Assembly (NCBI RefSeq): GCF_000003815.2
Contig: NC_049982.1
Coordinates: 23,101,835-23,165,834 of the forward strand
From: Branchiostoma floridae
Taxonomy: Eukaryota > Chordata > Leptocardii > Amphioxiformes > Branchiostomatidae
Reading direction: 5' to 3'
DNA: 64,000 bases
Shown here piece by piece: positions 16,601 to 61,001 of the stretch. A program made the position numbers and the translations under genes. The notes under the pieces were generated by a model, which searched no databases, had not been told where the DNA came from, and saw only the letters and a list, made by a program, of their open reading frames with translations. Each line of letters opens with the position of its first letter. The stretch's first letter is position 1.

Positions 16601-19080
16601 TCGATCATCAGTAGAAGTTCGTTACCCTTGACATCATCGTACTCGTAGCGAGAACCGAAGACGAGTGAGCAGATGACATTGGAAGTTGTATTCTTCAACA
16701 GCCTAGAGATGGAAAAGGCCTGGTTTTCTGTCTTTGTGATGACATCGATGAGGGCTCGTACCTCTTCTAGAATCTTCCCTTCCATGCTCCTCTTGCCAAC
16801 ACCGAAGTCCCGGAGAGCGGACATGGTGAACTTCTTCTGCTCCTTAAATCGAGGAGTGTATGGTTCAAGGATCAATCCTGAAAGACAGCCAACCCATGAG
16901 AAATTAGAAAATATGTGTATCTTTTTTTAAACCTTTATCAGCATTCACATACCAGTGTACAGACAGTATAATACAAACATAATAATACATTAAAAGCAAT
17001 TCTCATCAAGTTGTGTTCATGAGGTTACAGAGATATGTCTATAGTGTTATTTAGCATGTTTCTAAAATATGCAAAAGTTGGTTTGACGTTGAAAATATGT
17101 GTATATGCAAATATTTCTGTCCAGAAATAAAGAGTTCTACTGCTTATAGCACAACTTGCGGGAAATTCCTGAGCAGCTTTACACCTTTCTCTTGCATCTG
17201 TTTGGCATCTGGTACTGCATGTTCCAGATAAATGTTCCCAAAGATAAAGAACTAGAGTTCCAAGACTTCATATTTCTACAATGCAAATGTGCTGATATTG
17301 GACTGACCCCCGACGAGTTTAACCACTTGTTAACGACAGACGTACTCTGTGTGGATATAAGGCATAAACATATTTTCTGGTACTAAGTCAATTGCACCTG
17401 AAGAATGAATGTAGCTTCCTGTGTGACAAGGAATGGGAATGTAAGATATCGCCCACAACAACAACTTGTGCATTCGGCGATACAGTTGTAGTGACTGTAC
17501 ATGTCATGTTTCTGAACTCTTACCTTTTGCATTCTGGTCTGGCCCTAGAATAGAAGTCGGAGGACGGCTGGAGAAAACATCTGCGTTCGTCACCAAAGTC
17601 TCGCGGATGGCCCTAAAGCCATTCAGAACAACCCTTGGCTGGCGAAACATGTACACGGTGAAGACGTCTCCGTACTTCTTAGACCACTCTTGGAAAACCA
17701 AAGGCATATCCTAGTGGTCAAGAAACATACATGTATATAAATGTTGGGCGAATACAGATTCACAAACCCTGGTATGAATGTGATCAAAACCGAATCAACA
17801 GTAAGATTCGTATATTGTTGATGAATCTGTAAAAAAAACTCTGCCAGAGGATAAATATATAGAAGAACTTTATTGCACGACAATTGTACATGATACAATG
17901 TATGGCAAAAACTATTACATAAAGTACAAAATAGAGGTATAGGATAAAGCTTAACAACTTAGTTAACATAACAAGAAGGGCTAATATAATTCTTTGATAT
18001 AGTATTACAATGGAGTATAGGCTAATCATTAGTTACGGTATTCTTTCTAATAGCAGAGCAGTCCTTGATATATTTGCCTATTTTTGCATTCTGGGAGTTC
18101 TGACATCTAAAGATATGTATAAATCTGTTTGTAGCATCGAGTCTCCTGAAATCTGTTGTACTTGACTCGAGAAATATGAATAATTCATTACGTAAACTAG
18201 CGTATCTAGGACATTCCATTATAAAGTGTAGTTCATCTTCAATATATGTATATGAGACCATGTAGGAGCACACACCATATAGATAATAGCTAGTCCCTTA
18301 TCTTCGAAGAGATGAAATATTACAGTCTTGTGACTAAAGATGAGTGTGTAGTGTACATCGAGGAGCTGGGTTAATGTGCAACATTGTTGAGGACTAGATC
18401 ATAGCGGCCTTGTCTGATTGACCAATCAGCCCCTGGCCCCGAGACATTGCACAACACCAGCTAGTTCTGGACTATGACCCGGTGGATGTTTGCTGTCTTG
18501 CTAAATTCGTGGTGCCACAATCATCTTAAAACAACACCGTTTAACGCTGCCACTTACTACACGGTGAATCCACAAACCACGAATGTTCACACGAGGCTAT
18601 GGTATATAGAGAGGTTTCTCACTACAGTCTGTTCTAAATACAAGCTAAAATAAAGTTGTATTCCGAAAACTATCCGTGCAAATCATATCCTGTAAATATA
18701 GGACGTTCACCAGCAGCTGTCAGTTACGTTTAACATCGACCACTGAAAATCAAATCCAAAATTACTTGCCTCAGTAGAAACTAGATTGAAAGCGCATATT
18801 GTTTTGCATATTGTTTTACATATACTTAAAGTAACCTTAGGTTACCCAATGTAACCCAAATCTTCCTTACTTACCTAGGTAGAGGTCGTAGAGATTTCAA
18901 TCTTACCTTAGTCATGCTGAACAGGTTCCCCACCAGCGGAAGTCCTCTCGGTCCGGGCGGCAAGCCGGGTATTGAAGACCGCTTACACAGCACCGTCGTG
19001 ATGATGACCACAACGCCAACTAGCAACGCCTGGAGGCTCCATGGCCAGGTGAGGGCCAGCAGAACACTCATGATCGACAT
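13652..19080 (-). CDS. Cytochrome P450, CYP2-like
   Basis: Seven exons: 19080-18907, 17710-17524, 16877-16339, 15913-15749, 15444-15328, 14615-14474 and 13839-13652. They splice in frame to 503 residues, the usual size for a microsomal P450. Residues about 15-32 form the membrane anchor, followed by the proline hinge PPGPRGLPLVGNL (41-53). The I-helix oxygen-binding motif AGSDTT is at 308-313, the K-helix E-x-x-R at 365-368 (EISR), PTRF at 420-423, and the heme loop FSMGRRLCPG at 439-448 with Cys446 as thiolate ligand; this loop is split by the last intron. The layout fits a CYP2-clan monooxygenase of the endoplasmic reticulum; the substrate cannot be told. Exon 3 (539 bp) covers a region that is several exons in vertebrate CYP2 genes. 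It is transcribed away from the PM20D1-like gene, 2.1 kb distant. Confidence 0.93.
13906..13935. repeat. Perfect 30-bp palindrome in P450 intron
   Basis: GGCCGAATCCTGGAT is followed at once by its exact complement, with no loop. A second small hairpin, CTGGATAAAC ... GTTTATCCAG, follows at about 13951-13975. Confidence 0.85.
14710..14835 (-). repeat. Dispersed repeat fragment with GTGCCAAATTTCA-type core
   Basis: Shows GGCCAAATGACCTGAAATTC near 14811-14830, the complement of the core seen at 13106 and 13275. It lies in the intron between P450 exons 5 and 6, just beyond exon 6 (14474-14615). Confidence 0.5.
16040..16200. repeat. Dispersed repeat with hairpin head (CCAGTTGCTTGAGTAACT family)
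   Basis: The hairpin CTAGTTTTTGTCAGTG / CACTGACGAAAACTAG (about 16061-16095) is followed by CGTCTGACCGTTTCCAAAAC, a CCAGTTGCTTGAGTAACTAC block and GGCGTATCTTATTACCTGG. Related copies are at 39780-39905, 44200-44300 and 49200-49290. Confidence 0.65.
17865..18275 (-). mobile_element. 3' fragment of a LINE reverse transcriptase
   Basis: An 83-codon minus-strand frame (18273-18022) reads IEDELHFIMECPRYASLRNE, the C-terminal Cys-containing motif common in CR1/L2-type LINE proteins, then ends at a stop. An AT-rich tail follows to about 17865. It sits inside P450 intron 1. Confidence 0.65.
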
Positions 19081-21169
19081 AACTGTATCTCCTTTGTGTA
19101 ACCCAGGTGTGCATGCGCCTCGTATGCAAATAACAACCCATATCCTTATCTAGAATAGTCCATTCTGAAAAGTTGGCGAGTCATTTTTTCCCTTCCTCTT
19201 TGAGCATGAAGCTATACCAGTTGAGGACTTTGTTAGCCGTTTTAACTATCATGTGGCTGGGTTATTAAAATACCTGCACATAAACGGAGACTTTTGCTAC
19301 CAAATAAAGCAAAGAATTGAAAGCCTTTGTGATTGTCCACCTTCCAAACTCGTAGCCATGGTAGGTTCCTGGACGATTTTCCCAGACACTAGCTTTACAT
19401 CACGCCACAGTGTCCTTCACAAGATCCTTCTCAGCTCATTAAGCAAACCCAGGTACATGGGTTGGTGTAGTTGTCCCGATGGTCAGACCAGATTTTTGGC
19501 CTCCTGGTGGTTGAACTTGATTCTGCAGGTGGCCTCTTGTTAGTAGATGGAACGCTTCCGGTGCCAGTTCTACAGAAGGAAACGAACTTGCGGTGATGTT
19601 TAGTACATATAGGTTGGTGAACTGGTGTTGTCCTGGCGATTAGGTTTGAAGTTGGGCCTCCTGGTGGTGGAACTTAATACTGAAGGTGCCCTTTTTTGTT
19701 TTAGTGTATTTGGCCCTGGACATATTCTGTGCTTGTGATTTTTTGGTGTAAGGTGGAGTCGGTGTAACTTTGCATCCCCCCTCCCTAGCAGCATGCCGTG
19801 GAGGCAGTTTGGTCCCACCGACATCTGCTTGGCTAGGCCTGGTCAGATTCTGTTGCCCATGTAGGCAACAAGGGCCCACATTCCCCCAGGTGGCTAATTG
19901 TAGTATACATGTACTATTCACCGAGAGGGGTGTAGCTGTTTTCTGGATATTTGTAGCCAGCAAAACTTAAGAACCTTTGAGTGGATTGTGATTATATATG
20001 GATAGGTTTTGCGAAGACAAAGGTTACAAGCAGCTTGCCCTGGAGCTGCAGAGGAAGTTTAATATCTGAGTAACTGAACACAGAAAAAACGGAAGTCCAT
20101 GATATTCGGCATACAGGTATGTTACACACAGATGTATACAATCAGATATGGATTATGCAAATTAGGAATGAATGCATATTACTAATGAGTATGATATATG
20201 ATACAATGTTTTCAATAATTTTTGGGGCTTATAATATAGCTTGGGTACCTACTGACTGCAAATACACCAGATATATTATATATCTCTTATAAATGTACTT
20301 AGTTACTTGTACGTCGCCTCAATGACATTAACATGCCTTCCAAAAAAGGTAACATAGCAAGCCCGCAAAAAAAAATCTCGACTCGAAGAGCCTGAGAATG
20401 AGTCTCGGTGGTCATAGACGTATGTGACTTCTGGTCTTTGTCGTCATAGACAGGGGCCACCCTGGAGACAAGCTCAGCAAAAGCTGGAGATTCCTGCAGC
20501 GTTGATTTACCGTAGCGGGAACATTTCCCCAAAGAGATCCACGAAGTCATTTGTCACCTCTCTAAGGCTTAGGTCCGAAACGGGGCTGAAACGAAAACAA
20601 AAACGACATTATTTACCAAGGGATATATACAAATTATGCTCCTGAGTATCTTTTACGTTCTGTGTGTTTTGTTGCCCTTTTATCATTTTTTCCGTTTCCA
20701 AAAGCTACCCGGCCGGGCCCCGGGTTGGGAATTGGGACCTAAAAAAAAGACTCAGGCTTAGTTCAAAACGGGGCCCGGTCAGGATATTTGCTGAAACGAA
20801 AAAAATAACATTGTTACCAAGGAATATATACAAATTATGCTCCTGTCTATCTTTTTACGTTCTGTGTGTTTTGTTGCCCTTTTGATCATCTTTTCCGTTT
20901 ACGAAAGCTACCCAGCCGGGCCCCGGGTTGGGAATTGGGACCTAGGCCTAATCAGTTCATAAAATTTAAACCGTTATTGAATTCCGTGTACTTGTGGCAG
21001 GATGTTTATGTAATACAATCAGCCGCTGCCGCGTGCCTGCAAGGCTTGTTGCTTCTATTATACGCACGAGTGGTTGATCCGGTTGAACAACACAGATACA
21101 CAGACAAATACTGCCATCGATATGTGATGCACTTTAACCCCTCCACCTGTCTACTTTGTCCTAGCCAAG
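19081..21169. promoter_or_regulatory. Divergent spacer between P450 and PM20D1-like genes
   Basis: About 2.1 kb separate the two start codons, which face away from each other, so both promoters must lie here. I cannot point to a specific TATA box with confidence. The spacer holds a loose direct repeat (about 19471-19530 and 19625-19700, sharing GGCCTCCTGGTGGT) and the tandem duplication at 20580-20945. Confidence 0.45.
20580..20945. repeat. Tandem duplication, two units of about 165 bp, period about 204 bp
   Basis: Both units run from GCTGAAACGAAAA through ATATACAAATTATGCTCCTG and TTCTGTGTGTTTTGTTGCCC to GGGCCCCGGGTTGGGAATTG. The second unit ends about 230 bp before the PM20D1-like start codon. 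A weaker relative is near 43210-43320. Confidence 0.8.
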
Positions 21170-23120
21170 ATGTCTGCTGCACAAAAGCTGTTGCAGTGGG
21201 TCGGCGTCCCTTTGGTGTGTGTGGTCGTGATTGTGGTGGTCCGAACCGCCACGTTCCCTTCCTACCAGACACGCCCACCGCCCTGTAACGCTACAGATGA
21301 AGATTTTATCCCCGCCACCGAAGATAGGCTCAACAGGCTCAGCCGGGCAATAACCTTCCGCACCATCTCGTACGAACCGGGGCGAGGAACGCCCGAGGAG
21401 CTGCTCAAGTTTATCGCCTTTATACGCGACAGTTTCCCCGTTGTTCACTCCTCCCCGCTGGTGACGAGAGAGGTAGTTGGGAACTACAGTCTACTGTACC
21501 GCGTGGAGGGTTCGGACCGCTCCCTGAAGCCTGGTCTCCTGGCAGCTCACCTGGATGTAGTACCCGTGACCGAGGAACCTGGCTGGGAAGCTGAGCCGTT
21601 TTCTGGGCAGCGTAAAGACGGGTTCATGTACGGCAGGGGGACCATAGACTGCAAACATAACGTCATGGGACAAATGGAGGCGCTGGAGTTTCACCTGAAG
21701 AGGGGTCATCGACCGAGACGAACCTTGTACCTTGCGTACGGACACGACGAAGAGGTTTTAGGTCTCTACGGTGCGAAGCAGATTGCAAAACTGTTGGCGG
21801 ATCGCGGAGTAAAATTGGAGTTTCTTCTAGATGAGGGTTTTAGCGTAACTAAAGAATACGTACCAGGAGTGGCAAAGAAAGTGGCCCTACTTAGCGTCAC
21901 GGAGAAGGGCTACTTGACGGTAAAGCTCAGTGTACGGATGAAAGGAGGACACGGGTCCATGCCTGAGAAAGAGTCCGCTATAGGCGTTCTGTCTCAGGCG
22001 GTTACCAACTTACACAGGAACCCACAGCCAAACCTCTGGGGGTCGGGTCCAGAGCGGGAGTTCGCTGAGCACCTTGCTACCGAAATGAGCCTTCCCCATC
22101 GCGTGATGATTTCTAACCTGTGGCTCTTTACCCCCATCATTCGATGGTTTCTGGCTCAAAAGGCCGGTACTAACGCTCTATGCCGCACCACCACGGCCGT
22201 CACACGATTTAACGCCGGGATTAAAGATAACGTTATCGCTCCCGAAGCAGTCGCCATCGTGAACCACCGAGTTCATCCCAGACAGACGATACAGGAAGTG
22301 GTAGATCACGACGTCAAGGTTATCAACGACCCCAGGGTCAAAGTGGAAGTTGTGGCGGCTCTGGTCCCTGCACCCATCTCTCCGAGTGGTCCCGAGTCTC
22401 CAGCATTCATGACGATACAGGAAAGCATCCAACAGGTCTACCCAGACTCGCTTGTGGCTCCCTATGTTCTGTTGGGCAACACAGGTACGTAAAAAAATGC
22501 TTTTATAATTTATTTCATGATATGTGTTCTTTTCTATATCCATTCTACCCTCAATTGGCCAGGCTCTCTTCGGAGCAGATAAAGCTTTGGGGCAATCTTT
22601 CGGACCCGGTAGGAGTTTTACGGAATAGGAGCCAACAAATATCGTGGATGGCCAATTACCGCGTGAAACTCCTACCAAGTAGTCTCTACCAAACTCCCAC
22701 CTGGACCGAAATCCCGAGGCAACTTATTCACGTTACACTTCTCTATTTGGCCAAACTCTTCTCTTTTACCGACTAGAATTCCTACCAGATGCGAAAGATT
22801 ACCTCGGCGTATGAGCTTCATCTGCCCCAAAAGAGAGCAAAATAATCCACGATAGACTGGATAGGAGGTTATCATTTGTTCTGTTTGAAAATGTTTCTTT
22901 CTTACGTGTAGATACTCAACACTACTGGAACCTCACGAGCGCCATCTACCGGTTCTCTCCTAACGTCATGGGCCCAGAAGACTTCGCGAGATTTCACGGC
23001 GTGAACGAGAGGATCTCCATCGAGGACTACGGGAGGGTGATGAACTTTTATTTCCACCTGATGAGGAACGTTGATAAACCCTTGGTGGTGAGGAGACACG
23101 AGCATGATGGGGATTTGTAA
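21170..23120 (+). CDS. PM20D1: PM20D1-like M20 family peptidase / N-acyl amino acid synthase-hydrolase
   Basis: Two exons, 21170-22484 and 22912-23120, give 507 residues, close to the length of vertebrate PM20D1. Residues 11-25 are a hydrophobic signal or anchor, so it is likely secretory. Metal site residues are visible: H127 and D129 in AAHLDVVPV, D160 in GRGTIDCKHN, the E194-E195 pair in GHDEEVLGLYGA, D221 in LLDEGF, and H442 in NTDTQHYWNL just after the intron. Vertebrate PM20D1 joins and splits fatty acids and amino acids; whether this copy does so is inferred from family membership. The gene is almost intronless, unlike its many-exon vertebrate relatives. The single intron holds a foldback element. 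AATAAA is at 23756. Confidence 0.92.
22560..22845. mobile_element. Foldback MITE filling the PM20D1-like intron
   Basis: Left arm GGCTCTCTTCGGAGCAGAT and on through CGGTAGGAGTTTTAC pairs with the right arm near GTAGGAATTCT (complement) and TGAGCTTCATCTGCCCCAAA. It occupies most of the 427-bp intron. Confidence 0.6.
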
Positions 23121-28100: not shown

Positions 28101-29421
28101 TTAATAATACTGGAAGTCCCACGGTTGAACTGAGTGTTGCTCATTTTCCTCAACAGCAACAGAGGAGTAATATTTTGTAAGAAGGGGTATACTTGACTCC
28201 AACCAGTCCTCTGGTATCAGGCTAGTCCTTAACCCGTCTTTGTACACGTTAAAGGGTCATACATCTGATAGGAGAATCAGAACAATGTTTGATGACGATT
28301 TTATGACTTCGATGAAATGAAAAGCTGTCTCATATCATCCATGGCCACTGCTTGTGTACAGCAGGGCATGGTCCTGCTGTGCTGGCCTGCGATCCGACCT
28401 TGTCACTGCTTTAGCTTTAGCCAGTCGGCACCAGCCGATCATCTCCTTCGGTCAACAGCTAGCGTGATTGGCTGGTACGTTTCCCTCCAATAATAGGAGG
28501 GGGAGTACTGTATTTGATTGGCTGACGGCTGGCTATGACTAAATAACACAGCGCGAAGGACGGATCACGCAAGGGTAGTTGCTTAATACATACAATCAGT
28601 GGACCTGGTGTGACACGATGTCTCACGGTGACACGTGAATATATTATGATCTATTTTATCTACGTACAGGTGTCCATGTGAGACTGGATGAAGGCCACAT
28701 TGAAGAGATGGGCTATTTCGGGCAGAAGACACCAGGACTCGAGGATTTCGTACGAGTTGTACGTCAGCTCATCACAAATGCAACGCCAACGGCAAGAAAT
28801 GCTGGAAAAGAGCTCCGCATATTTTTGGCTTGTGATTTGGACGAAGTTTTGGGGGTGTTCAAGGCCGAGTTCGGAGATGACAAAGTCTTGAACATCCAGG
28901 CTGCTAGGGGAGATGATTTCAAGCTTAAGCTCAAGGTAAAGGATAAAGATTCCGCGCGTTCGATAGGTGATGAGGTGTTCACTGATATCTTGCTGCTGTC
29001 TAAGTGCGACTATCTTGTCCATGACGAGTCGAGTGTGGCAGCCGTGGCGTACTACTTCAACCCGAACCTCAAATCTTTCTTTGTCAGCGGAGACGCCGCT
29101 GACCACAGGCGGCTGAACGCGAAACCTCGGTTTGATTCTCAGGAGCTCCTTCGTCAGGCCGCTGTTAGGAAGACGAGCAACATCCGGGACATTTCCGTTG
29201 GGCAGGACTGGCTTTGGTCCGGGTTGGAAACTAGGAGCATGCTACTGTTGCACCTTTTGGGACCAGACGCACGCAGTCCTATCAGTGCAGGCAAATGTTT
29301 TTACAAGAATGTGGGACAAAGCAAGTGTAGGAAAGAGTTTGAAAGTCTTCAGCCTGACAGTAAAAGAGTGAAAGATCTGATGAACTTGAACTTGGGATAT
29401 CAACCAAAAAATGCTGCTTAA
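25178..29421 (+). CDS. Type II membrane glycosyltransferase, alpha-fucosyltransferase-like (copy B)
   Basis: Six exons: 25178-25331, 25813-25997, 26437-26530, 27023-27102, 27612-27825 and 28670-29421, in frame for 492 residues. The start ATG at 25178 begins MFVSRR, matching MFVWRR of copy A. A hydrophobic signal anchor (about residues 23-45) predicts a Golgi type II protein. Shared features with copy A include GFGALVLQTIDD, IWTDCDYCGPPGHGKNYW, the HVR loop (here HVRLDEGHIEEM) and CDYLVHDESSVAAVAYYF, the last two resembling FUT8/NodZ-type fucosyltransferases. Exons 3-5 of the two copies are exactly the same length, and introns also align in places (for example the 3' part of intron 3 and the first part of intron 5), so the pair arose by duplication of genomic DNA in inverted orientation. 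Acceptor and exact donor sugar are unknown. Confidence 0.78.
25528..25680. mobile_element. Foldback MITE in intron 1 of copy B
   Basis: Arms GCCTCCATAGCAGGCCTTTT...GGCTCATGATACAC and GTGTATTATGAGCC...AGCCTGCTATGGCGGC pair over about 40 bp. Copy A has no equivalent that I can see at this spot, so the insertion probably post-dates the duplication. Confidence 0.65.
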
Positions 29422-42875: not shown

Positions 42876-45800
42876 CTAGACAAACATGGTGAAGGTGGAG
42901 TGTTGGTTGATCATGCATTCGCAGAAGAGTCTGATCTGTTGTGAGTACACCTCCCACTCCTCCAGGTACACCCGGGTGCCGTCGCGAACCGTGGGCGAAC
43001 ACTGGCCCTTACGCCGCAGGATACTGACGGAGAAGGTGCCCTGTTTACACGTGCCATGTCCTGGTGAAACATGAAGAAGGATTGCAGACTTAGTACAATT
43101 CTATGTAGTACAACATCAGGCTAGAGTTACATTTCCAAACCTGGGCCTGCCCGGGCTGTTAATGAAATGTTAACGTAAAAAATATACACAAACAATGCCA
43201 CAACTATTCTCTTGCGTTGATTGGTCGTTTGGTGTCTTTTATATCATACTTTTTCTTCCCCAAAGCTGTCTGGCCAGGCCCCGGTTTGAAAATGTGACGT
43301 TACAAGGCCTCAGGCCTCGGATCAACTAAAATTGCATCTGTAGTTCAAATGAATTTCATTGATGAAAGAGTGTGTTTTTTAAGTTTTGTCTGTCTGAAAT
43401 CATATACTTTTATGGATCATACTCAATCTATCAAATCATAGGTCATACAGATCTAATTTTGTGTCAAAATATACGGTTCTCATAGCACAATGGAGACTGC
43501 AAAAACTACCAAAAAGTTATAATTATGCATGCATGATATGCTCAATGTTCAGTTGTGCACACTCCATGATATCTAACATCAAGTCATAATTCCACCGGGT
43601 GCCATGATACTAGGGCTGGGTATCGGTACAGCGTACCGGTACAAAACCGTTTTTTCTTATTGGACCGGTCCAGAAAAACCGGACCTGAAAAAATTAGGTG
43701 GACCGGATGTTGGACCGATTAGAAAATTAACAGATCATTTGATCAGGCATTCACACGTTTTGACGCTTGCAGGTGGAAGAAAATAACAAGAGTGAAGTAG
43801 AGTAGAGTTTTTAGTCATTTCTACCAAGTTTTACAGTCATTCGTACAGGTGCAGTTAGCTTTGTATGATTTTAAAACGTCAGTGTAAGTCTAATACTCCA
43901 CCAAACAGATTTCTTTGTAGTGAAATGGACCATTGGTATGAGTCATACTGCATCAGGTCCAGGTTCAGGTCCGGACCTGGACCTAATCCTCTGGACCTGA
44001 ACCGGACCTGGGCCTGAATTTTATGTACCGGTACCCAGCCCTACATGATACCACTACTTGAGAAAAAAAATGCCTAAATGTTAAGTTATTTAAATTGATG
44101 TACCAATGCAGCATCAGTAATCCTGAGGTACCGGTTTATACACTTCAGATAGTTAGGTGCTTAAGACTATCTTCAGAAGGCTTCTATGGCAAAGTTTTTT
44201 TGTAACTGACGAAAGATGGTGGATGCCATCTGAAAGTTTGACCATTTTCAAAATCATATCCAGCTGATTGAGTAACTGCTTTTTTTGGCTTCATTACTTA
44301 CTTACTTACCGTAACCTTGCACCATGAAGCATCCCCTATCGGAGCTATCAGTACTGCAGATGGCCTCGTTGATGTATCGCGGGAAATAGTCCTCTCCCAG
44401 GTCGGTGGTGGCGGCACACACCGTGCACAGCCGCTTGTACCCGTCCTCTGTCACCGTGCCACGCTCCAGGCAGTAGTCAACTTCTGTTGACCCTGAGATC
44501 AATAATCAACGGAAACGGTCATCTTTCGTCTACATGTTCACGCCTGACCTATTTGAAGATATGTGGCAGTCAATACTGAGCATAGTATTAGTAAAATCCT
44601 AATTAGCATCAACCCAACATGGTCACGGTCACATATGTCGTACGCTCGTCGTACGATCACTAAATTAGGGCTTTTGGGACAGCACGTGTCCTGCAAAGTT
44701 CAGCAGTCTTTTCACACGAAAGTCTGCCATAGGTCCTCTGCAGTGGTTGGTTCTGCCATAGCCTGCTTGAAAATTCTATGGCATCAAAATCCTACGACAA
44801 TGGCACAACGTGTATGGCCATGCTATATCGCTAAAAGCCAATTATCCGTCCTTTGAAATGCAAATCATGGACACCAACATGGCGGTCAACACCTACCTGC
44901 TTCATTGATTCGGAAAATGAGTAAAACACCCCACGCGTGAGAGTTAAGACCCTACCTGTGTCGCGTATGATTCTACGGGAGATGTTCAGAACCTCGGGCA
45001 GCACGACGCCCCTAGCGAGACTCTCCGGTAGGACATAGCGTGTGTTGATTTCGTCTATCTTCACCTGACGGCTGGAGACAGGAAATGCGAGAAGCTAGGA
45101 ACAAAGGATGAAAAGACATCAGCGATCGTCCATGTGACACATGGACACTGGATATTATGTCATGTCGCAATTCTAGTTATAGCCAAAGGATTTTCTGTGT
45201 CCGTATAGAACGTTTTATGTATTATGAATGGGGCTGGGGGATTCAAGGTTTTGATACCTTTTCCAGTCCTTGTGACAGGGACGCTTGCTTTGCTTCCTGT
45301 AAATCGTTGAAGAGTTGCTTCTGGATCTGTTCCTTCAGCACGACATTGGCCAGGTCCATGTCCACGTGACGTGACGTATCAGAAGGGTCCTGTATGAAGC
45401 ATGAGTCATTGCGTGTAACGTTACTGAACTACAGGTATAATGTGAAGATATATCCTGTGAAGGGAAACTCATGACCTGGAATGTCTGTCAGTTGTTACAA
45501 AAGTTTGATAAGGCCCCCTGTCCTATTGACAGTGACTGCTGAGTAACCAGAATTTGATTTGTAAGAATGATTCATGACAGAGTCATTGCGTGATCTGTCA
45601 AGCGATTGTAGCATGGCCACAGCCTCCATCGTAAATACTTATTCTGCTAACTTTGAACTACACTTCCTATCACTTGCGATTCTGGTGTTTGCCTTTTTTT
45701 ACTCCCTGTGATGGCGAAACCTGTCAATTTGGAAATAAACTGTGGAAACAATGCACGTCATGTACCTCCGATCACGTTGCAGCTATACATAAGAAAAGTT

Positions 45801-48800
45801 TTATGTTTTGAAATGAAAGCACATCCTTCGTGTAGATAAAAAGGCGAGATAGGGTGTTACTGTTCCTTACACCGTACGTCTCTGACAGAGCAATGACGTT
45901 AGGAAACTTCCTGGCGTCCTCCCGTGACACGGCCATGTACCGCCTGTTGAACTCCCCACGCTCCCGCAGGATGTTGAACAGCTCCTTGGAGGACCGCGTG
46001 TAGCACCTGTGCGGGAGGTAAACATGCGACTAGTACAGAGTACGAAGTACTGGCACAGCCTAGGCACAGGGAGATGGACTTTACAGACACATAAAATTGA
46101 CATACATAGTTAGAGAGTAAAATTCCTTCAGAAATAGCAAGAAGCTGTTGTCCTCGGATACGGCTATCCTGGTTAGTCCTGTGTTTTCACGATATCTGGT
46201 CTTTCCATAGCTCGGGGAGTCATCGCCCGCATGGGTCTGGTCATTGAAATTTGCAAACTTGTTTTTGTATACTTAGTGAAACTCTTTGATATCGTAAATC
46301 TGTTGTAATTTGAAGGTGTTCAAACTCGGTCTTACCGTGTCCGTAAGATCTCTGCCTGAGCCTCCTCGGCGATGTCCTTGATGGGGATGCTGACGTCCTG
46401 CCCGTCCCCGGTCTTCGCGCTCAGCTGCGGGACCACTCCTTCCACTCCCGGCGGGGGGACTGCCATCATGAACCGCTGAGGCCCCAGCAGTCCTTCGGGG
46501 TAACCCTCCGGGTGATCTGAAACAGGCTACAGGAACGATGTCAGAATAAAAGACCTACACAGTTTTGAGGACATGTTCGACGTTGGACCCCTTCCGACTA
46601 GACGACAATCGTTGCGCGAACGAGCGCAGCGACCAATCTTGGATTTGTGCTACCCTTAAATTCATAATTGGAGTATGACGCAAAAGTAAAAAAATCATTA
46701 GAAAAATCCGTTCTTTTTCTATAAATTCGTTGAGGGATCTGTCCAACTTTTGATCGCTCAGTGGTCGCAGCCTCTATAAAGGAAAGGGGTTATTACTGAA
46801 ATTCGCTAAAGAAATCAAGCTTCACGGAGGCCGTCGTTGTAGGCCGCTGTGCGATTTTGATGTGTAGTTTTTAAGCAAGTTGGGCAGCTTAACCAAAGAC
46901 AGCTGACTATGCATACATGTATTTTGCACGGCTACAGATGTACAGCAAGTTCAAAAATGCCCTCCAAGTTTGAGGTGCGACGATCGCACGATGAATGTGA
47001 CTGGGTCTCAAGCTTAAGCCAGAGAAACAGAGAAAATGATCAAACATATCGAGGCACTGTAGACCCTACGTTTGGGCAAGGTGAGCCGTTTAGAGAATGT
47101 TTAAAAAGTGTCAACAAAATATTCATTACCTCCACTGGCCTGAAATTCCTTGTGTCCAAAATCTTGTCAATGTCGACCTCGTTGACCATTTCAGACGCTG
47201 TGTAAAAGATCGTGAACAGTTCGTGTAAGAGATCTCCTGCCTTATAAGCCATTAGCCTCCACCAGGCCTTCATGGGTGGTTACGGATTGTGGAATTTGGC
47301 GAACGTAGGTTTAATATTAAATTGGTCAGGAGGGTTAGCCCACAGTAAATGTAACATTTCTCCATTTTCTAACGACTTAATATTACCCTAGCCCACTGTG
47401 GCCAACACTCCAGCAAATTATTTTTCTCCTTTGGTTAAATCAAGTATTGTTCAGCCAGTGTATCTAGTCTGGTGGAGGCTAATATAATATGGCATACTGA
47501 AATTACAAATAGTACATTGCACAATTTGTAATTTCAGTATGCCATATCATATTATTCTCAACGGAAGCTAAAATACTCATTTCACCTGAGTCTGGTGAAG
47601 AAATAGTCTTCAAGTGCAATTCCCAATGGAACAACGTGACCGCTCAAACGTTGACCCACCCACCTGACTGACGTGTTCTGTTCAGCGGTAGTGTTGGCGG
47701 CATGTGTGTAGTGACGTCACCGGTAACGGCTGCACCCGTTGTAGCTGCAGCTGCTTCTGACTCGGCACCTGACTCGGCCTGGCGTCTCAATCTGGGGACC
47801 GTCTTTCTCAGAAACGATGTTTTCAGGTGCAAATTTATGTGTGGTTTTCTAGAAGGTGCGCCCTCTACCGCACATAGACAGCACAGCAGTATCATGGTTA
47901 CGGTGGAACTTACAACCTATGACAAACAAGAGAAGGGTAGAACATGTTCATTTATACATGATATACGATTATAAAAGCGTATAGCTAGAGTACTTTCCCA
48001 TGCATTCTACCCTTAACTCCAGCAACTGGATATGATTTTTGAAACGGTCAATCCGAAATACGCAAATCTTGTTTGATAAGCTTACAAATAATCGCACATA
48101 AGATACCAGACAAAAAGTTTCCTCAATAAGAGACATTACAAAAGACATATACGTAACTTTGTTCACTTCATTGCTAAGATACATTGATCCTTTGTTTCAA
48201 TATCCTCGTCCAAATTTTGACAAAATAAAATGCCCCTGCAGTTCCAGAACAAGTCATCTTAGGGTAAAGCCCACACCACTTTCCACAAAGTTATCAAAAA
48301 GATCATGAGATAGAATTTCCAGAACAGAGGACAAAAACTGGACGTTCTGCTACAATATCAAGGAAAGCCACTAGGAGGCGCAAGATCGATCTTGTCCTTC
48401 CCACGTACCGATTTTCACAATGACACAATCCATTCATAGATTCTCAGGTTATGCTGGCCCAAGTATGCAGCAACGCAAACCAACAGAAAGACCAAAAACA
48501 ATACCTCCGTTTTCATGGAGGTAACAAGGACACAGCCCCGGGTGGGATCTTGAATTCTTTGCAATTTTGAAGGTATGTAAAAATCTCGACCCAATTCCAC
48601 AGACTCTGATCAAATCTTAATCTTAATCCAGGAAATAGATACACTGTAAATCATTCCCATCGCATGGGGGGACAGAGTCCTGGAGTGTGATTGTGGATTG
48701 AAAACGAAATCCATGTTTAACTGTCCCAATTCTGCCCGATATTCCAAGAATGTGGATGCTAAGTCCCCCATTCACAAACACAATCCCTCAACGTGGCTCA

Positions 48801-51302
48801 TTCATAATTTGGTATCTGGTCAAATATTTGGCGCAGAAATTTGGGACCTACACAACATTTTGGTGTCCTCGAAATACTATTTTTTTCATATCAATAATCA
48901 AACGTTTTTAGGCGTAAAGAAATTATAATAAATTAGCGTTACGCGGTGTGCACGCGTTTTATATCAGGGCTCAAAATCTCGAATATTTCATTTCATACCG
49001 CTGTGACATTTAAGTAATGTATCATTAGTCTGACATAGGCCCCACCTAGAGTCTCTCGTGCTCGTGCGTAGGAGGTTACAAAAATGTAGGTAACGCAGTC
49101 CTGGTGTGTGAACAGGTGTATCCATACGCATGACCGATGACAAGTCGCTTTTCCTACGTCAAATGGGAGTGGTAGGTAGAGTTATATACGAGTATATGCC
49201 AAATACCAGTTACTCAAGCAACTGGATGATTTTTGAAATGGTTAGATGTTCCTGGTAGCCGCTACCTTTCTTCGTCTGTTACACTGAGCAGATCTGTTAC
49301 ATAACCATTCTTTGATTTGTAATATAGACCTTACGAAAGTCGCTGTACTTATGTTGTGTATAATAAAGATTTCTATGTAGAGGAGCTGAAGACAAATGTA
49401 TAAATTGTATACATTGACTAAGGAAGCTTAGGGTGTGGTCACATTCGTCGTCGTACAAATTCAAGCACACTGTGACAGAACCAACCACCAGTCTTCTCGG
49501 TAGAAATACAGCTAAATTGCATTGTGCCCGTCTCATTCACGACTATCTAAAGAATGTCCTTAGTTTGAGATCGCACGACGATTGCGCGACTGTTATAACC
49601 TATTAGAGCTCCGAAAATTTTAAGTAGCTATTTCATTACACGCGAACTCCGTGTATATCGTCTTATAAAAGTTGATACCAAAAATGGCAGCTTAAACAAT
49701 ATAGTACAGTCGTGATAAAGGTAGTCCTCATGCCAGAAGTTAGATAACTGGAAAAAAAAACACAAATTTGTAACAAAAAGTTTCCATGTTTCGACATGTC
49801 CTGTGGTATTCAGAACCCACGTTACAAATCCCCAAATGGAATGTGCGAAAAATATTTGCAGTGTCTGCATATCATGAATATAGAGTGCTTACTTTAAAAG
49901 TGAAGAATAGAGGGCCCTTTATACAGATAGATGACTTACAAACAGTGTATGTTTGACCAGTTTCTGTGCCACAACATTTCTCAAGTACAGTTGCCACTGT
50001 AATGTTTGGCAGTACCAACACTGCTGACACGTCGGGAGAGCTTCCGGACTGGTTTGTGGGAGTGCCGTCAAAAAACTGCCATTAATGTGACAACTTCGAC
50101 CCGGCCTTGTGCAAATAACAGTCTGTATAATCTCCGAGCAGATGTAAGGGCCGTCGTACTGTTTTGTTTGGCCTTTTACGTACATTTTTTTCGGCGGCCT
50201 GAATTTTCGCCTTTTCCCCTAGAAAGACGTATATAAAAAAAATCCAACTTGACCTTCGTCTTCCCAACACCTACCTACATACCAAATATCAGTGTGATCT
50301 ATCAAGACGTTCTTGAGTTATGATGACTACATAAATCCGGAAACACATACAAACACGCCCCAAACAATATCTCAATTTTTCATGGAGATAAAAAGTCTCA
50401 AAGACACTGAGCCTTACCCTACCTCTGCTTGGAGATTTGGTCTAGTCTTCGCTATTTAATTTCCGTGTTTTATTCAACGTAATCTATTTGAAGTAGAACC
50501 GTCTTAGGTTGGAGCACAAGGAATAATAGTGTCTACCAGACTCCAAAGGTCGCTGGATAAACCGTAGAAAAGGAACAAATAGAGGAGTAAGCCGACCAGA
50601 GGAGTACAGCCAGCTAGGGAACAGCTCGCGACCTACGTAGAAACTAAAGGATTACGCTGGAAAAGTAAATGTGATTGAAATAGCAACTCCATCCGATCTT
50701 CGAACAAACATATACATTGAACCTCGTTGAAGAAGAAACGCAATCTTAACTCAGCTGTAGAAAGGCAAACCGAGAGATTAGAGGACAACGATTCTTCGCA
50801 CCTGTCTCCTCTCATAGTCATACACTGATACATCATGCCCCATAACCAAGTGTAAATCTCAATCCCTTGAAAAATATAAGCTACCGAGTACCGACCGATA
50901 TACGCCCATTGTCCCAAGTAAGTTACATCTATCTACTGAAGAGAAGCGGACGCCTACCATATTGTTCACAACTTGCACTTCCCGGCCTTCTTTTCCATAC
51001 CGACAGCCAATCTAGTATATACACTTCATCAGTAGATAATAAAACAAAATCACGCCACCACCACGAACCACTAAGAACGCGATTTCGGCCCTCAAATGCG
51101 GACAGAAAAGAGAGAAATCCCCACAATGAGTCACCATGAGGGAATATTCATGTGGTCCGTCTGTTGCTCCAGTAACAAACACAACCGAATTTGTTTCAAT
51201 GTAAAACGCCTTATAATTAGCTTGCGTAAAACTTAAAGAGCCTACAAGCATAGCATATAGTACAATACAGTCGACCATTCTTGATCTTACCTTGTGCTGC
51301 AT
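42876..51302 (-). CDS. Secreted cystine-knot protein, Trunk/PTTH/Noggin-like
   Basis: Eight exons: 51302-51291, 47916-47664, 46516-46336, 46006-45871, 45389-45258, 45064-44956, 44492-44310 and 43060-42876, in frame for 396 residues. The first exon gives only MQHK; with exon 2 it makes a signal peptide (STVTMILLCCLCAVEGA). A long prodomain follows, with RLRR and later RRIIR as furin-type sites. After RRIIR come about 125 residues with nine cysteines: CTVCAATTDLGEDYFPRYIN, then C-x7-C, GTCK, SILRRKGQC and a final CEC. A DLG-x2-(Y/F)-x-PRY step before paired cysteines, with a C-x-C end, is the pattern of Noggin and of arthropod Trunk/PTTH. It should be a secreted ligand or antagonist; receptor unknown. 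Exon 1 is the least certain part; an in-frame ATG at 51356 also exists. Confidence 0.72.
43575..44190. mobile_element. TIR MITE (CATAATTCCACC family), interrupted copy
   Basis: CATAATTCCACCGGGTGCCATGATAC is cut at 43610 by a hAT-like element and resumes after 44051. Its interior resembles that of the copy at 10540-10755. Lies in the last intron of the cystine-knot gene. Confidence 0.6.
43611..44043. mobile_element. hAT-like MITE, 433 bp, 8-bp target duplication
   Basis: Ends TAGGGCTGGGTATCGGTAC and GTACCGGTACCCAGCCCTA. CATGATAC flanks both sides (43603-43610 and 44044-44051). TAGGG-type ends with 8-bp duplications are the hAT hallmark. The interior has nested CAGGTCC / GGACCTG palindromes also present at 7070-7285. 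Confidence 0.88.
44200..44300 (+). repeat. Dispersed repeat (TTGAGTAACT family) copy
   Basis: CTGACGAAAGATGGTGGATG, then ATATCCAGCTGATTGAGTAAC; related to 16040-16200. It ends next to the splice donor at 44309 on the minus strand. Confidence 0.55.
47252..47482. mobile_element. TIR MITE with TTAGCCTCCACCAGG ends
   Basis: Left end TTAGCCTCCACCAGGCCTT, right end TCTGGTGGAGGCTAA. A single left-end-like GTAGCCTCCACCAGGCCTTC also occurs at 53443-53462. Lies in intron 2 of the cystine-knot gene. Confidence 0.6.
47481..47553. repeat. Near-perfect 30-bp-arm hairpin
   Basis: Arms 47481-47510 and 47524-47553 pair with one mismatch around a 13-nt loop. It abuts the right end of the MITE at 47252-47482. 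Confidence 0.85.
49200..49290. repeat. Dispersed repeat (CAAGCAACTGG family) copy
   Basis: ACTCAAGCAACTGGATGATT and TTTGAAATGGTTAGATG are the reverse-orientation form of the 16040-16200 family. Lies in intron 1 of the cystine-knot gene. Confidence 0.5.
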
Positions 51303-54620: not shown

Positions 54621-55566
54621 TAGAACTTGACATACAATTTCTATGCGAATCTTTCTTCTGAGTGTGTGTGTCAAAAGTTGTTTCATCACTTCAGTGTGCA
54701 ACAAAGCTATGCAGGGGACTCCCACTCAGCACGCCACATTCACAGCCAAAATTCTGTAAGATCGTCATTTTCTGGAAGTTGCCACCGACGCTTTGCAGAA
54801 CGGTCAACTGTTGGGTGCGCTGTTTACACTGCCCATAGCCTGAAAAACAGAGTTGTGAAACAATATCAGCTTTGCACAGCTTGAACTATCAACTGTATGT
54901 GGGGTAATTTTTGTGTGGTGTTTGTACAAAGTGTCTCGAAGATTTGTGGATGGATCCGTATAATATTTATTAGGGAGGGTTCACAGGTACCGCGTATATT
55001 TCACCGCCCCACCCCCAAGCCCCCCCCCCCCGAAAGGTGACCCTAGAAGGTAGGATTACCTGAAAGGCATCTGGTGTCCGTATCGCACCGGAGCTCGTTC
55101 AAGATGGGTGGAAAGTAGCCAACAGGAAGCGTCTTTACGTACCAACACGTCGAACACAACTGTACTCTTCCATTCTGCAGCTGATCGACATCACCTCGCA
55201 TGGTGCAAGACAATTGCTGATCTCGTGTTTCTGTACCAACATCATAAGCTTCAATACAACTGCTGTCTATTTATTTTGACAAGACTGGGCCTGTTATGGG
55301 GCTCGGGGCTTTATTTGTGTCTGTAAAGCCGACATAACAATCCTTAGGCCTTCTGCGCAACACACCAGCTTCTGTATCTTTATCTAAGACCATGTTTTAA
55401 ATTATAACTGCCTTTCGTCGTAGCATACCAGCGTATTCTAATTGGACACGAGCTAACCAGATCTTAACATCTGCTTGATGCTTTTTTCTTTATTACACGT
55501 TTTTGCACCCGCTCCTCGCCAGAGACCCCGACAAGCATGTACAGAACTGGGGATGCAGGTGTGCCT

Positions 55567-55572
55567 TTTAAT
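55567..55572 (-). terminator. Polyadenylation signal of the small peptide gene
   Basis: TTTAAT on the plus strand reads ATTAAA on the minus strand, 30 bp after the stop codon at 55605-55603. Confidence 0.5.
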
Positions 55573-55602
55573 AACATGATAACAATAATATGTATTGTCT
55601 GA

Positions 55603-57896
55603 TCACCCTCTCTTCCTGGTCAGTCTTTTGCCAACCAATTCATGCTTACCAAATTCGTGGGTCTCCTCTTCACCGACATCGCCAGTTTTATCTGTCGGGA
55701 CAAAATCGTCAATATGTGAGTACAGAAATCCTACCAATGGACAGTTTATAGCTTGAATTCTCCATACTAATAAATATATCGCAGGAGATACGTTCAAGAG
55801 ATATCTGAAACTGTAAATTGAGCATGTACAAAATAATTTGTGTAAATGCAGAGCCATCCAAATATGAATGGAAAAAGCAAAAGCTCCATGATATCACATG
55901 TCGATGACTATAGCTCACCCCGCCTCGCCTTGATCTTGTTGAGCAGAAGAGCCAACAGTCTCTCCCCCCGCTGTTCCACAGTCTGCAGGGCGGCCTCAAG
56001 GTCATCCTTACCGTCATTCCATCCATGAGCCTTCCCAACCAGCAAGATGGAAGCTAACACCAGCTGTGGGAAACAGGAGGACGTTGAGATCACATTCGTT
56101 TGTGTAGTACAATGGTAAACTTTCTTTCAACACAAAGGTATACACAAATCGAACATTTGGCGAACACTGTCGCCTTCTTCAGGATCAATACCGATCAATA
56201 CAGTATCATACGTATTGATCCTGAAGAAGGTGACAGTGGCCGCGTTGAAAATTTGATCCGTGTATACCTTTGTGTCTGAAGAAAGTTTAGCATTGTACTA
56301 TGATTACTACCGACACAGATGAGCTTCCATGATAACCTTCGTTTTTGGTCTGTTTGTTTGTCCTGGTGTGTGTTCAGGTTTGTTGCTACTGGCCTGAGCA
56401 CTAGTTTGTTCGAGGGTGAGTTGATACCGAAGCCTGGTAGGATGCGGAGGCTGAGCACAAATTTCTTTGAAAAGTCTGACAGGAAGTGAAGGCTAGCATA
56501 AAGGAACTGGAAGATGGCAAGTGCCCGAGAGTCAAGCATGCAATATTTTGAATGGACATGCTTTTGTTATATTTTCATCCAGAAATTCAGAAAACAATAC
56601 TCTTAACATTTCCCGAATGTATGGGATATTTGATTTCTTATTTTCGAAAAATGCTCGTATCTTTCATTTTCTTTACATGTGTCTGTGTTTTTGCATTTAC
56701 CAAAATATAAACAGGACATTGTTATCGAACATCCAAAGTGCTTGTATACTGGAAGGGACTACCAAAGGATCATGGGTAAGGGGTGAGGTATGCCCTCTCT
56801 GATTGTCGGATGTTAAAGGAAACGCACTGAACAAATCTTAGCGTGTAGTGAGAGTGCACCCTCTCCAGCTATCCTTACAAATGAAAGATGCCTGTCATCA
56901 TTGACATGTAGCAGGCTAATTGATAAGTAGAGTGGAGTCATTAGTCTAAAATGGGTGACATGTGCCATACGCCAGTCAGTATAATAGTTTGATTGACAGA
57001 AACGCACTAAACCTCACATAGGCAACTGGCTGACATTTTCACTAAAGAAACGACGTCTGATAAAATAGGCAGAAGAATTTTAAAGGGGTAATGACCTGGG
57101 GCGTGAAAGGGTTTGCGGACCATTAGAGGGCAGCTGGCGTGAAACAAGTCGGGCTCTGCATTTGCTTAAAGGTTAGCCTGTGCATGTGATCTGCCTTTTG
57201 TGAGAAGGAATGTGGTTCAACGGACCTTTGATGATGGGTGATAACCACAGTGGCTACTAAGGGTCAAATGTGGCCTAGCCTCAAGGTGGTAGCTACAAAC
57301 ATGTAATTATGAAGACAGGGAGCGACCTTGTAATGAGGTAGATTTGTTCTCAAAACCTGCGAAAATTGAGATTATAAACCAGAGTACGAATCAGGAACAC
57401 ACTGTAGTACGACTGTACTAAGCTGAATCCAACTTAACATAATAAAACTTCGAGAGATTTCATGTTCTTTAATCTAATAGACAAATGGATAATTGGTTGG
57501 CCTTGGCGTGCCTAATAGTGCCTCCCCCCAGAGTTGTCTGCACTCTTGTTTTTTTTCCGTTCTCTTTAAGAAAGTGGTAACTATTTCTGGCTATTTGTGT
57601 TCAGTCAAGCTACATCGCTTTAACAGAGTTATTGAAATAACGTTTGAGAATTCATGTAACCAAAGTGCCTTTTATCAAACGTAAATTGCACCCTAGGCAC
57701 GAAAAACTTTATGCAGGTTTGAATTTGTCAGTTGCGTCTTAAGATCTGTCTTATTTCTACCTACCTAGTTACTTCACGACATCGACCTTACATATAACTT
57801 CTTGTTACATGAAGGGGAAAAGCAAACCCAAAGACAACTAACCCCGTAATATTGTGAAAGAACGAACAAGACAGAAGTACCCACCAGACGTTTCAT
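55603..57896 (-). CDS. 81-residue secreted peptide precursor, family not recognised
   Basis: Three exons: 57896-57885 (MKRL only), 56063-55919 and 55691-55603, with clean GT-AG introns, matching phases and a stop in exon 3. Residues 1-18 (MKRLLVLASILLVGKAHG) form a textbook signal peptide. The next stretch, WNDGKDDLEAALQTVEQRGE and on through RLLALLLNKIKARR, is predicted to be an amphipathic helix ending in a dibasic site. Then an acidic segment (DKTGDVGEEETHEF), a GK step, HELV followed by GKR (a possible amidation-cleavage signal) and LTRKRG at the end. There is no cysteine. Size and processing sites suggest a neuropeptide or peptide hormone, but I cannot match it to a known family, and an antimicrobial helix is also possible. 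ATTAAA follows 30 bp after the stop. Confidence 0.62.
56103..56302. mobile_element. Foldback MITE in intron 1 of the peptide gene
   Basis: Left arm TAGTACAATGGTAAACTTTC through CACAAAGGTATACAC and CTTCTTCAGGATCAATAC; the right arm is its complement over about 85 bp. Confidence 0.78.
57165..57395. repeat. Direct repeat, copy 1 (within the peptide gene intron 1)
   Basis: GTTAGCCTGTGCATGTGATC through CTTTTGTGAGA, GGGAGCGACCTTGTAATGAG and AACCAGAGTACGAATC. Diverged copy 2 is at 58445-58680, on the other side of the first exon. Confidence 0.7.
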
Positions 57897-59631: not shown

Positions 59632-60937
59632 TCAAAGTTGATTTAAAATTCTGCGCTTTTCCTTGTCGTGTAGCTCACGTGTAAATGGTATTTCTGATTT
59701 TGCCATGTTTACACAAGTCTTGTTCATCAGGGCATTTTCCTTCAACTGGAAGTGCTCCATATGAATGCCGGCTGGTTGGAACACGCCAAAGCGTTTGTCA
59801 TCCATAGTTGCGTTACTAACACTGTCAGACTGAAGACACTCGTTTTGTATTTGCAGATTTTTGGCTTTTAAAACTTCCACCTCTTTTCTCCAGTCGAAGG
59901 GGAGCTTGGAAAGCTTAGACCACAATGTTTTGTTGAAGTGATCAAACAACATGGCATCCGCCTTGTTCCATTGCCGGATTTTTTCCGCCATATCTGCCGT
60001 CATGCTACGTATGGATTCATTTTCTCGTGCGTTCATCTTGAAAAACGTGACGTCATTGATATCCCAGCAAAGCGTGTGTTTCAGCAAAACCAAGGACTCT
60101 TCGAAATAGTCTGCTATCATTACAACAGAAAAGATTTTCTCGATTCGATCAATGTCAAATTCTATGCTTTGTTCTGTGTCAGACTCTGTCCTGATATTCC
60201 CAAATTCAAACAACATGGGGTTACGGTATAGCGCTGCGGGTCTTTTTGTCCCGAACTTGACATAGTAAGAGGGCTGTTCCAGAAAGGTCTTTAGAGGCTC
60301 AGTAGTATTTTTTATCCGGAAATCTTTGTCGAATCGCATGTAACTGAAAATCGATTCAAACATGTAAACTGGGTTCCTAATGATGGTGATATATACAGTA
60401 TCGTCTGGCATAAGTTCTCGAACGTGCTCGTGATGAAACCGAATGTGGTGGCAGAGGATATTGTAGGTGGTGTTTTTCTTCGAAAGGTCCTTTTGGAGCA
60501 CAAATGACTTCTGAAATAATTTTGGCCAGCCCATTATGTGTCCATTTCTTGGTAGAACAAAGGTGAGGTTTCTAGTACTTCCGAACCGCATAATTATGTT
60601 TTGTACAGTAGAACTGGCCGTCTTGTGGGTCTTCAAGAAAACAAGGTTTGTTTTTTCGTTGCATGTGTTGGATGTATTACCAAATCCGGCACCTTGTTCT
60701 TGTTCTTTCATAGAGGTGATATCAGAAGCATCGTTTGGCCCTTTTCTGAAGCCTTTGTGTGTGCGAATTCTTCCTCCCGAAATGGTGTTGTTCTTGTGGT
60801 CGTTTGGCTCATCAGTTACGGCATTGTTGTCCGAAGCCTGTGTGTGTTTCTTGACTTGTTGGCTTGCTTCGTTGTTGTCTGAAGTCCGTGTCCTCGTGAT
60901 ATTGTTAGTAGTATAATAAGCCATCTCTGTCTTCAAC
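59632..60937 (-). CDS. Galactose-3-O-sulfotransferase (GAL3ST) catalytic exon, partial gene
   Basis: A 434-codon exon begins after the acceptor ATAAATGCAG at 60938 and ends with a stop at 59632. The frame enters with one base, so an upstream exon must supply the start; it was not found in the window. GAL3ST enzymes are Golgi type II proteins that move sulfate from PAPS to the 3-hydroxyl of galactose on glycolipids or glycoproteins. LVFLKTHKTASSTVQNIIMR is the 5'-phosphosulfate loop and TIIRNPVYMFESIFSYM the 3'-phosphate loop. Several N-x-S/T sites suit a lumenal domain. The first 90 residues are low-complexity stem (Asn/Thr-rich) and there is no membrane segment, which supports a missing 5' exon. 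The next ATG at 60924-60922 could start a soluble form, but I think this less likely. Confidence 0.85.
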
Positions 60938-60952
60938 CTGCATTTATAAGGT

Positions 60953-61001
60953 GTCAATCAATCAATCGATAGATCGATCAATCAATCAATCAATCAATCA
61001 A
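60953..61001. repeat. (ATCA)n microsatellite
   Basis: Tandem ATCA/ATCG units just upstream of the sulfotransferase acceptor. Confidence 0.9.

Follow-up and report, generated by a model that had tools for sequence, protein, structure and literature searches.

Does a non-vertebrate chordate carry a ligand gene standing between Noggin and the ligands of Torso, and if so, to which of the two types does its product belong? Related as they are, these proteins act differently: vertebrate Noggin blocks BMPs, and Trunk and PTTH of insects activate a receptor kinase. Where a chordate lineage has retained Trunk-type genes, one can ask which of these activities arose first. An earlier note on a 64-kb stretch of Branchiostoma floridae DNA, the whole of which is referred to here as the window, had proposed a Trunk/PTTH/Noggin-like cystine-knot ligand between positions 42876 and 51302.

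The proposed gene is real. The minus strand from 51302 to 42876 holds a single gene (gene 1) of nine exons, which join in phase to encode 422 residues and a stop; its ATG at 51302 and its stop at 42876 fall exactly on the ends proposed. Exon boundaries were placed manually, guided by splice signals and reading phase, so that the model derives from the DNA alone, and all eight introns have a GT donor and an AG acceptor. The two remaining frames of the joined coding sequence carry 17 and 15 stops, and its third-position GC is 68%, against a window GC of 42%. The exons are as follows.

51291 to 51302, minus strand: exon 1, MQHK (start, four codons), donor AAG|GTAAGA; very short, and of the gene 1 exons the one placed with least certainty
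47664 to 47916, minus strand: exon 2, signal-peptide-like hydrophobic stretch VTMILLCCLCAVEG (from hydropathy) and start of the prodomain with RLRR
47130 to 47197, minus strand: exon 3, prodomain (splice model)
46336 to 46526, minus strand: exon 4, prodomain (splice model)
45871 to 46006, minus strand: exon 5, prodomain (splice model)
45258 to 45389, minus strand: exon 6, prodomain (splice model)
44956 to 45064, minus strand: exon 7, cleavage-like site RIIR near the exon end (splice model, motif)
44310 to 44492, minus strand: exon 8, first half of the Cys domain with C308, C323, C326, DLGEDYFPRYI, C346 and C355 (splice model, Pfam, PDB sequence search, shuffles)
42876 to 43060, minus strand: exon 9, second half of the Cys domain with GTCKQ, SILRRKGQC, Trp, CEC and the stop (splice model, PDB sequence search, shuffles)

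The encoded protein begins with a hydrophobic leader (the top hydropathy windows start at residues 8-13), followed by RLRR (46-49), a long prodomain, RIIR (295-298), and the Cys domain. Downstream of RIIR lie 124 residues with nine cysteines, at positions 308, 323, 326, 346, 355, 366, 382, 408 and 410. This agrees with the ∼125 residues and nine cysteines noted earlier, and CAATTDLGEDYFPRY, SILRR, and CEC are likewise all found in the C-terminal part. CEC had been called terminal; it is present, but 12 residues follow it, making it near-terminal. The same order of sequence features is the precursor plan described for Trunk/PTTH in passages of PMC8398477. The gene 1 product is a predicted secreted precursor of the Noggin/Trunk/PTTH superfamily.

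Placement of the domain relied on Pfam, a sequence search of the PDB, and shuffle tests. The best Pfam family was Noggin, with an E-value of 4.4e-4 when the C-terminal 158 residues were scanned and of 0.001 when the full protein was; the corresponding 20.6 and 19.4 bits are below the curated cut-off of 24.1, and the match is confined to the core of the family (profile positions 132-183 of 211). A weak line for PilB3_C in the scan of the full protein (E 0.13) was taken as chance. The PDB search, with E-values up to 10, returned two sequences, PTTH (5aoq, E 0.17) and Noggin (1m4u, E 0.67), neither significant by itself. The PTTH alignment runs from before DLGE through the final CxC, and the Noggin alignment covers the core only. 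When the domain was aligned directly, it scored 64 with PTTH and 65 with Noggin, against a shuffle mean of ∼26 (SD ∼4.5) in each case, and none of 2000 shuffles scored as high, also when the cysteines were held fixed. The likeness of the gene 1 domain to PTTH and to Noggin exceeds chance, and the family assignment made earlier is backed by all three approaches.

An IL-17-like or neurotrophin-like cystine-knot cytokine, in which the DLG..PRY step would be a coincidence, is highly improbable. The Pfam IL17 family does reach nearly its whole length on the C-terminal part (profile positions 10-80 of 81), at an E-value of 0.077 compared to 4.4e-4 for Noggin, but this match is not significant (13.8 bits, cut-off 24) and is absent from the scan of the full protein. 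Moreover, IL-17A and NGF align with gene 1 at the level of noise, their scores being reached by 1294 and 650 of 2000 shuffles, respectively. Placement in one of these families, which the earlier note had named as refuting its proposal, did not occur.

Domains of the PTTH type have six knot cysteines, arranged in pairs. In the alignment from the PDB search, five cysteines of gene 1 are matched to cysteines of PTTH. C323 precedes DLG by seven residues, a spacing shared by PTTH and Noggin. For C355 the alignments disagree: the PDB-search alignment and one further alignment match it to a PTTH cysteine, and both shuffle-test alignments leave it unpaired.

PTTH and Noggin themselves scored 56 (0 of 1000 shuffles as high), and with scores of 64 and 65 to gene 1 the three are at about equal distance from one another. 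Since the two gene 1 scores are equal, sequence similarity does not by itself choose between PTTH and Noggin. Other features favor the Trunk type: no Noggin clip turned up, the C-terminal third is PTTH-like (a Trp, then CxC), the precursor follows the Trunk/PTTH plan, and a trunk gene has been published for a lancelet. The N-terminal part of gene 1 scored 23 with the clip region of Noggin (shuffle mean 27.7, reached by 1849 of 2000), a pairwise comparison that a very diverged clip could escape, and 26 with the N-terminal part of Noggin (mean 30.6, reached by 1753 of 2000). The gene 1 product reads as a Trunk/PTTH type rather than an ordinary Noggin, and we consider a Trunk-type ligand the probable identity.

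A clip-less Noggin-like protein that is still a BMP antagonist, or that has both roles like NL1 of the pea aphid, is an unlikely alternative, with evidence on both sides. Among Pfam families Noggin ranks first and is alone below E 0.01, gene 1 scores equally with Noggin and PTTH, and the nine cysteines of its domain equal the number in the human Noggin chain. According to passages of PMC9071555, both pathways respond to pea aphid NL1, which still blocks BMP when its clip is absent; the missing clip in gene 1 is therefore not decisive against BMP binding. In addition, a noggin-like gene, which may differ from gene 1, is counted among the BMP modulators in a comparison of five species, B. floridae among them, as given in passages of PMC13121700 (2026). 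On the other hand, the local match to Noggin ends around ILRRKGQ, whereas that to PTTH continues via the Trp to CxC, and neither the clip nor any above-chance similarity to the N-terminal part of Noggin was found in the comparisons given above.

If gene 1 encodes a Trunk-type ligand, its product may work by analogy with Trunk and PTTH. A signal peptide would direct the precursor out of the cell, and a proprotein convertase would cleave it after RIIR; passages of PMC6303783 discuss the cutting of Drosophila Trunk by furin. The freed cystine-knot protein of 124 residues, probably a dimer, would then bind and activate a Torso-like receptor tyrosine kinase and thereby the MAPK pathway. These steps are taken over from Trunk and PTTH; what the locus itself shows is the gene structure, the layout of the precursor, and its relatedness to PTTH and Noggin.

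The earlier account of the locus was right about gene 1 and did not mention a tandem paralog, at 54691-56063, outside its coordinates. This gene (gene 2) lies 3.4 kb upstream of gene 1 on the same strand, with four exons within 56063-54691 and a tentative start exon further upstream.

57885 to 57896, minus strand: tentative start exon MKRL, the sole candidate in 59631-56064 that fits the donor pattern; weak donor CTG|GTGGGT; completes the leader MKRLLVLASILLVGKAHG
55919 to 56063, minus strand: hydrophobic leader LVLASILLV and propeptide to KIKARR (splice phase)
55650 to 55691, minus strand: short acidic linker (splice phase only)
55060 to 55230, minus strand: first half of the Cys domain, CTMRG..LCSTC..GYFPP..NELRC..TRC (tblastn, alignment)
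54691 to 54839, minus strand: second half of the Cys domain, GYGQCKQ..L..CEC, and the stop (tblastn, reading, phase)

The gene 2 product has 172 residues, comprising a leader, KIKARR, and a Cys domain that is 33% identical to that of gene 1. A tblastn search of the window with the C-terminal domain of gene 1 matched 55207-54935 at an uncorrected E-value of 4.2e-5 (1.7e-4 over 55207-55073 with composition correction). A weaker match was found at 54879-54784 (E 0.025 uncorrected, 0.16 corrected), and the best uncorrected E-value in the reversed window was 1.2. The two products aligned with a score of 100, against a shuffle mean of 28.9 and with 0 of 2000 shuffles reaching it. Each gene has a phase 1 intron within the codon for the first Gly of GxGxCK (GHGTCK in gene 1, GYGQCK in gene 2), and the glycines align; a further phase 1 intron lies 7 or 8 residues ahead of the first domain cysteine in each. 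Homology of the two genes follows from the tblastn matches, the shuffles, and the common intron. Two exons of gene 2 ranked 3rd and 4th of 2112 reading frames (E 0.54 and 0.94) for a profile made without gene 2; a profile including it finds it strongly, which is circular. A PDB search with a profile of both paralogs placed a histone deacetylase first (E 0.26) and PTTH second (E 0.66) of three matches, and Noggin was not among the three; this left the placement no sharper than before.

From its sequence, gene 2 reads as a fast-diverging tandem duplicate of gene 1 with a shorter precursor. That it is instead a decaying pseudogene, leaving the locus with no second working ligand gene, is rather doubtful. 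Its start exon is tentative and has a weak donor, and DLG, PRY, and one cysteine have been lost. Taken alone it matches PTTH and Noggin at chance level (509 and 178 of 2000 shuffles reach the respective scores), and a Pfam scan assigned it to no family. Against decay, all four main exons are open and joined in phase at GT-AG introns, the leader, the KARR site, and the stop are in place, and all eight of its cysteines align with eight of the nine in gene 1. Returning to gene 2 as a diverged duplicate, no description of a tandem Trunk-type pair was found in the open-licence literature, among the matches listed (titles, starts of abstracts, and passages). It is conceivable, though we think it distinctly unlikely, that the pair has diverged in precursor length and surface residues such that one member keeps an old Noggin/Trunk double role and the other is a short, fast-evolving hormone, or else acts together with the first or against it. 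If so, how BMP blocking and receptor activation came apart could be tested within one non-vertebrate chordate.

The remainder of the window holds several other genes and reading frames. RNASEH2A (ribonuclease H2 subunit A) runs tail to tail with gene 1 on the plus strand, from 37057 to ∼42460; its exons, joined by hand, match chains that the PDB names Ribonuclease H2 subunit A, the best of them at E 8.4e-97. Cytochrome P450 exons are found on the minus strand at 13655-14020 and 16309-16926. Single long reading frames encode an M20 peptidase (21128-22492, plus strand) and a galactose-3-O-sulfotransferase (59635-60957, minus strand). Two similar frames on opposite strands, 4967-5731 (minus) and 28639-29421 (plus), are identical at 208 of 247 aligned residues. 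The first has a weak match to alpha-1,6-fucosyltransferase (FUT8) with an E-value of 5.6e-4, below the cut-off, and the second has none. A retroelement reverse transcriptase with 654 open residues occupies 728-2692 on the plus strand. Rfam at gathering scores and a tRNA scan found nothing in the window.

A chordate with a Torso-type ligand has been reported before. Passages of PMC6660194 (eLife 2019) report trunk in B. floridae, credited to Jekely 2013, as well as in hemichordates, lophotrochozoans, and others, and report torso in deuterostomes. Trunk/PTTH has been added to the list for Xenacoelomorpha in passages of PMC11521371; those of the centipede genome paper (PMC4244043) mention noggin and PTTH and make no mention of a lancelet trunk. 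The earlier note had held that such a ligand in a chordate would bear on the origin of both systems, and the published reports of B. floridae trunk and deuterostome torso in PMC6660194 take away that weight. Gene 1 is probably the trunk gene reported from B. floridae, or its ortholog. What is added here is the complete structure of the gene, together with its tandem copy; it is not a new principle, because lancelet trunk and deuterostome torso had already been reported (PMC6660194).

Compared to known systems, gene 1 shares with insect PTTH (5aoq) the DLGE..PR.I and CK...S..ILKR motifs, the Trp, and the final CxC, with possible counterparts for six cysteines. It differs from PTTH in having nine cysteines in the domain rather than seven, longer loops, and ∼300 residues ahead of the cleavage-like site. 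With Noggin (1m4u) it has in common the DLG..PRY core, the spacing of the preceding cysteine, and the nine cysteines; it departs from Noggin in that no clip was found, in the last third of the domain, and in missing the Pfam cut-off. As they are described in passages of PMC9071555, ApNL1 and ApNL2 of the pea aphid belong to the same superfamily and, like gene 1, stand between Noggin and Trunk/PTTH. By description gene 1 also resembles the Trunk of PMC6660194, a secreted precursor in which a cleavage site separates an N-terminal region from a C-terminal cystine knot of the PTTH/Noggin type; the passages on Trunk in that paper mention neither exon structure nor a tandem partner, and both are given here.
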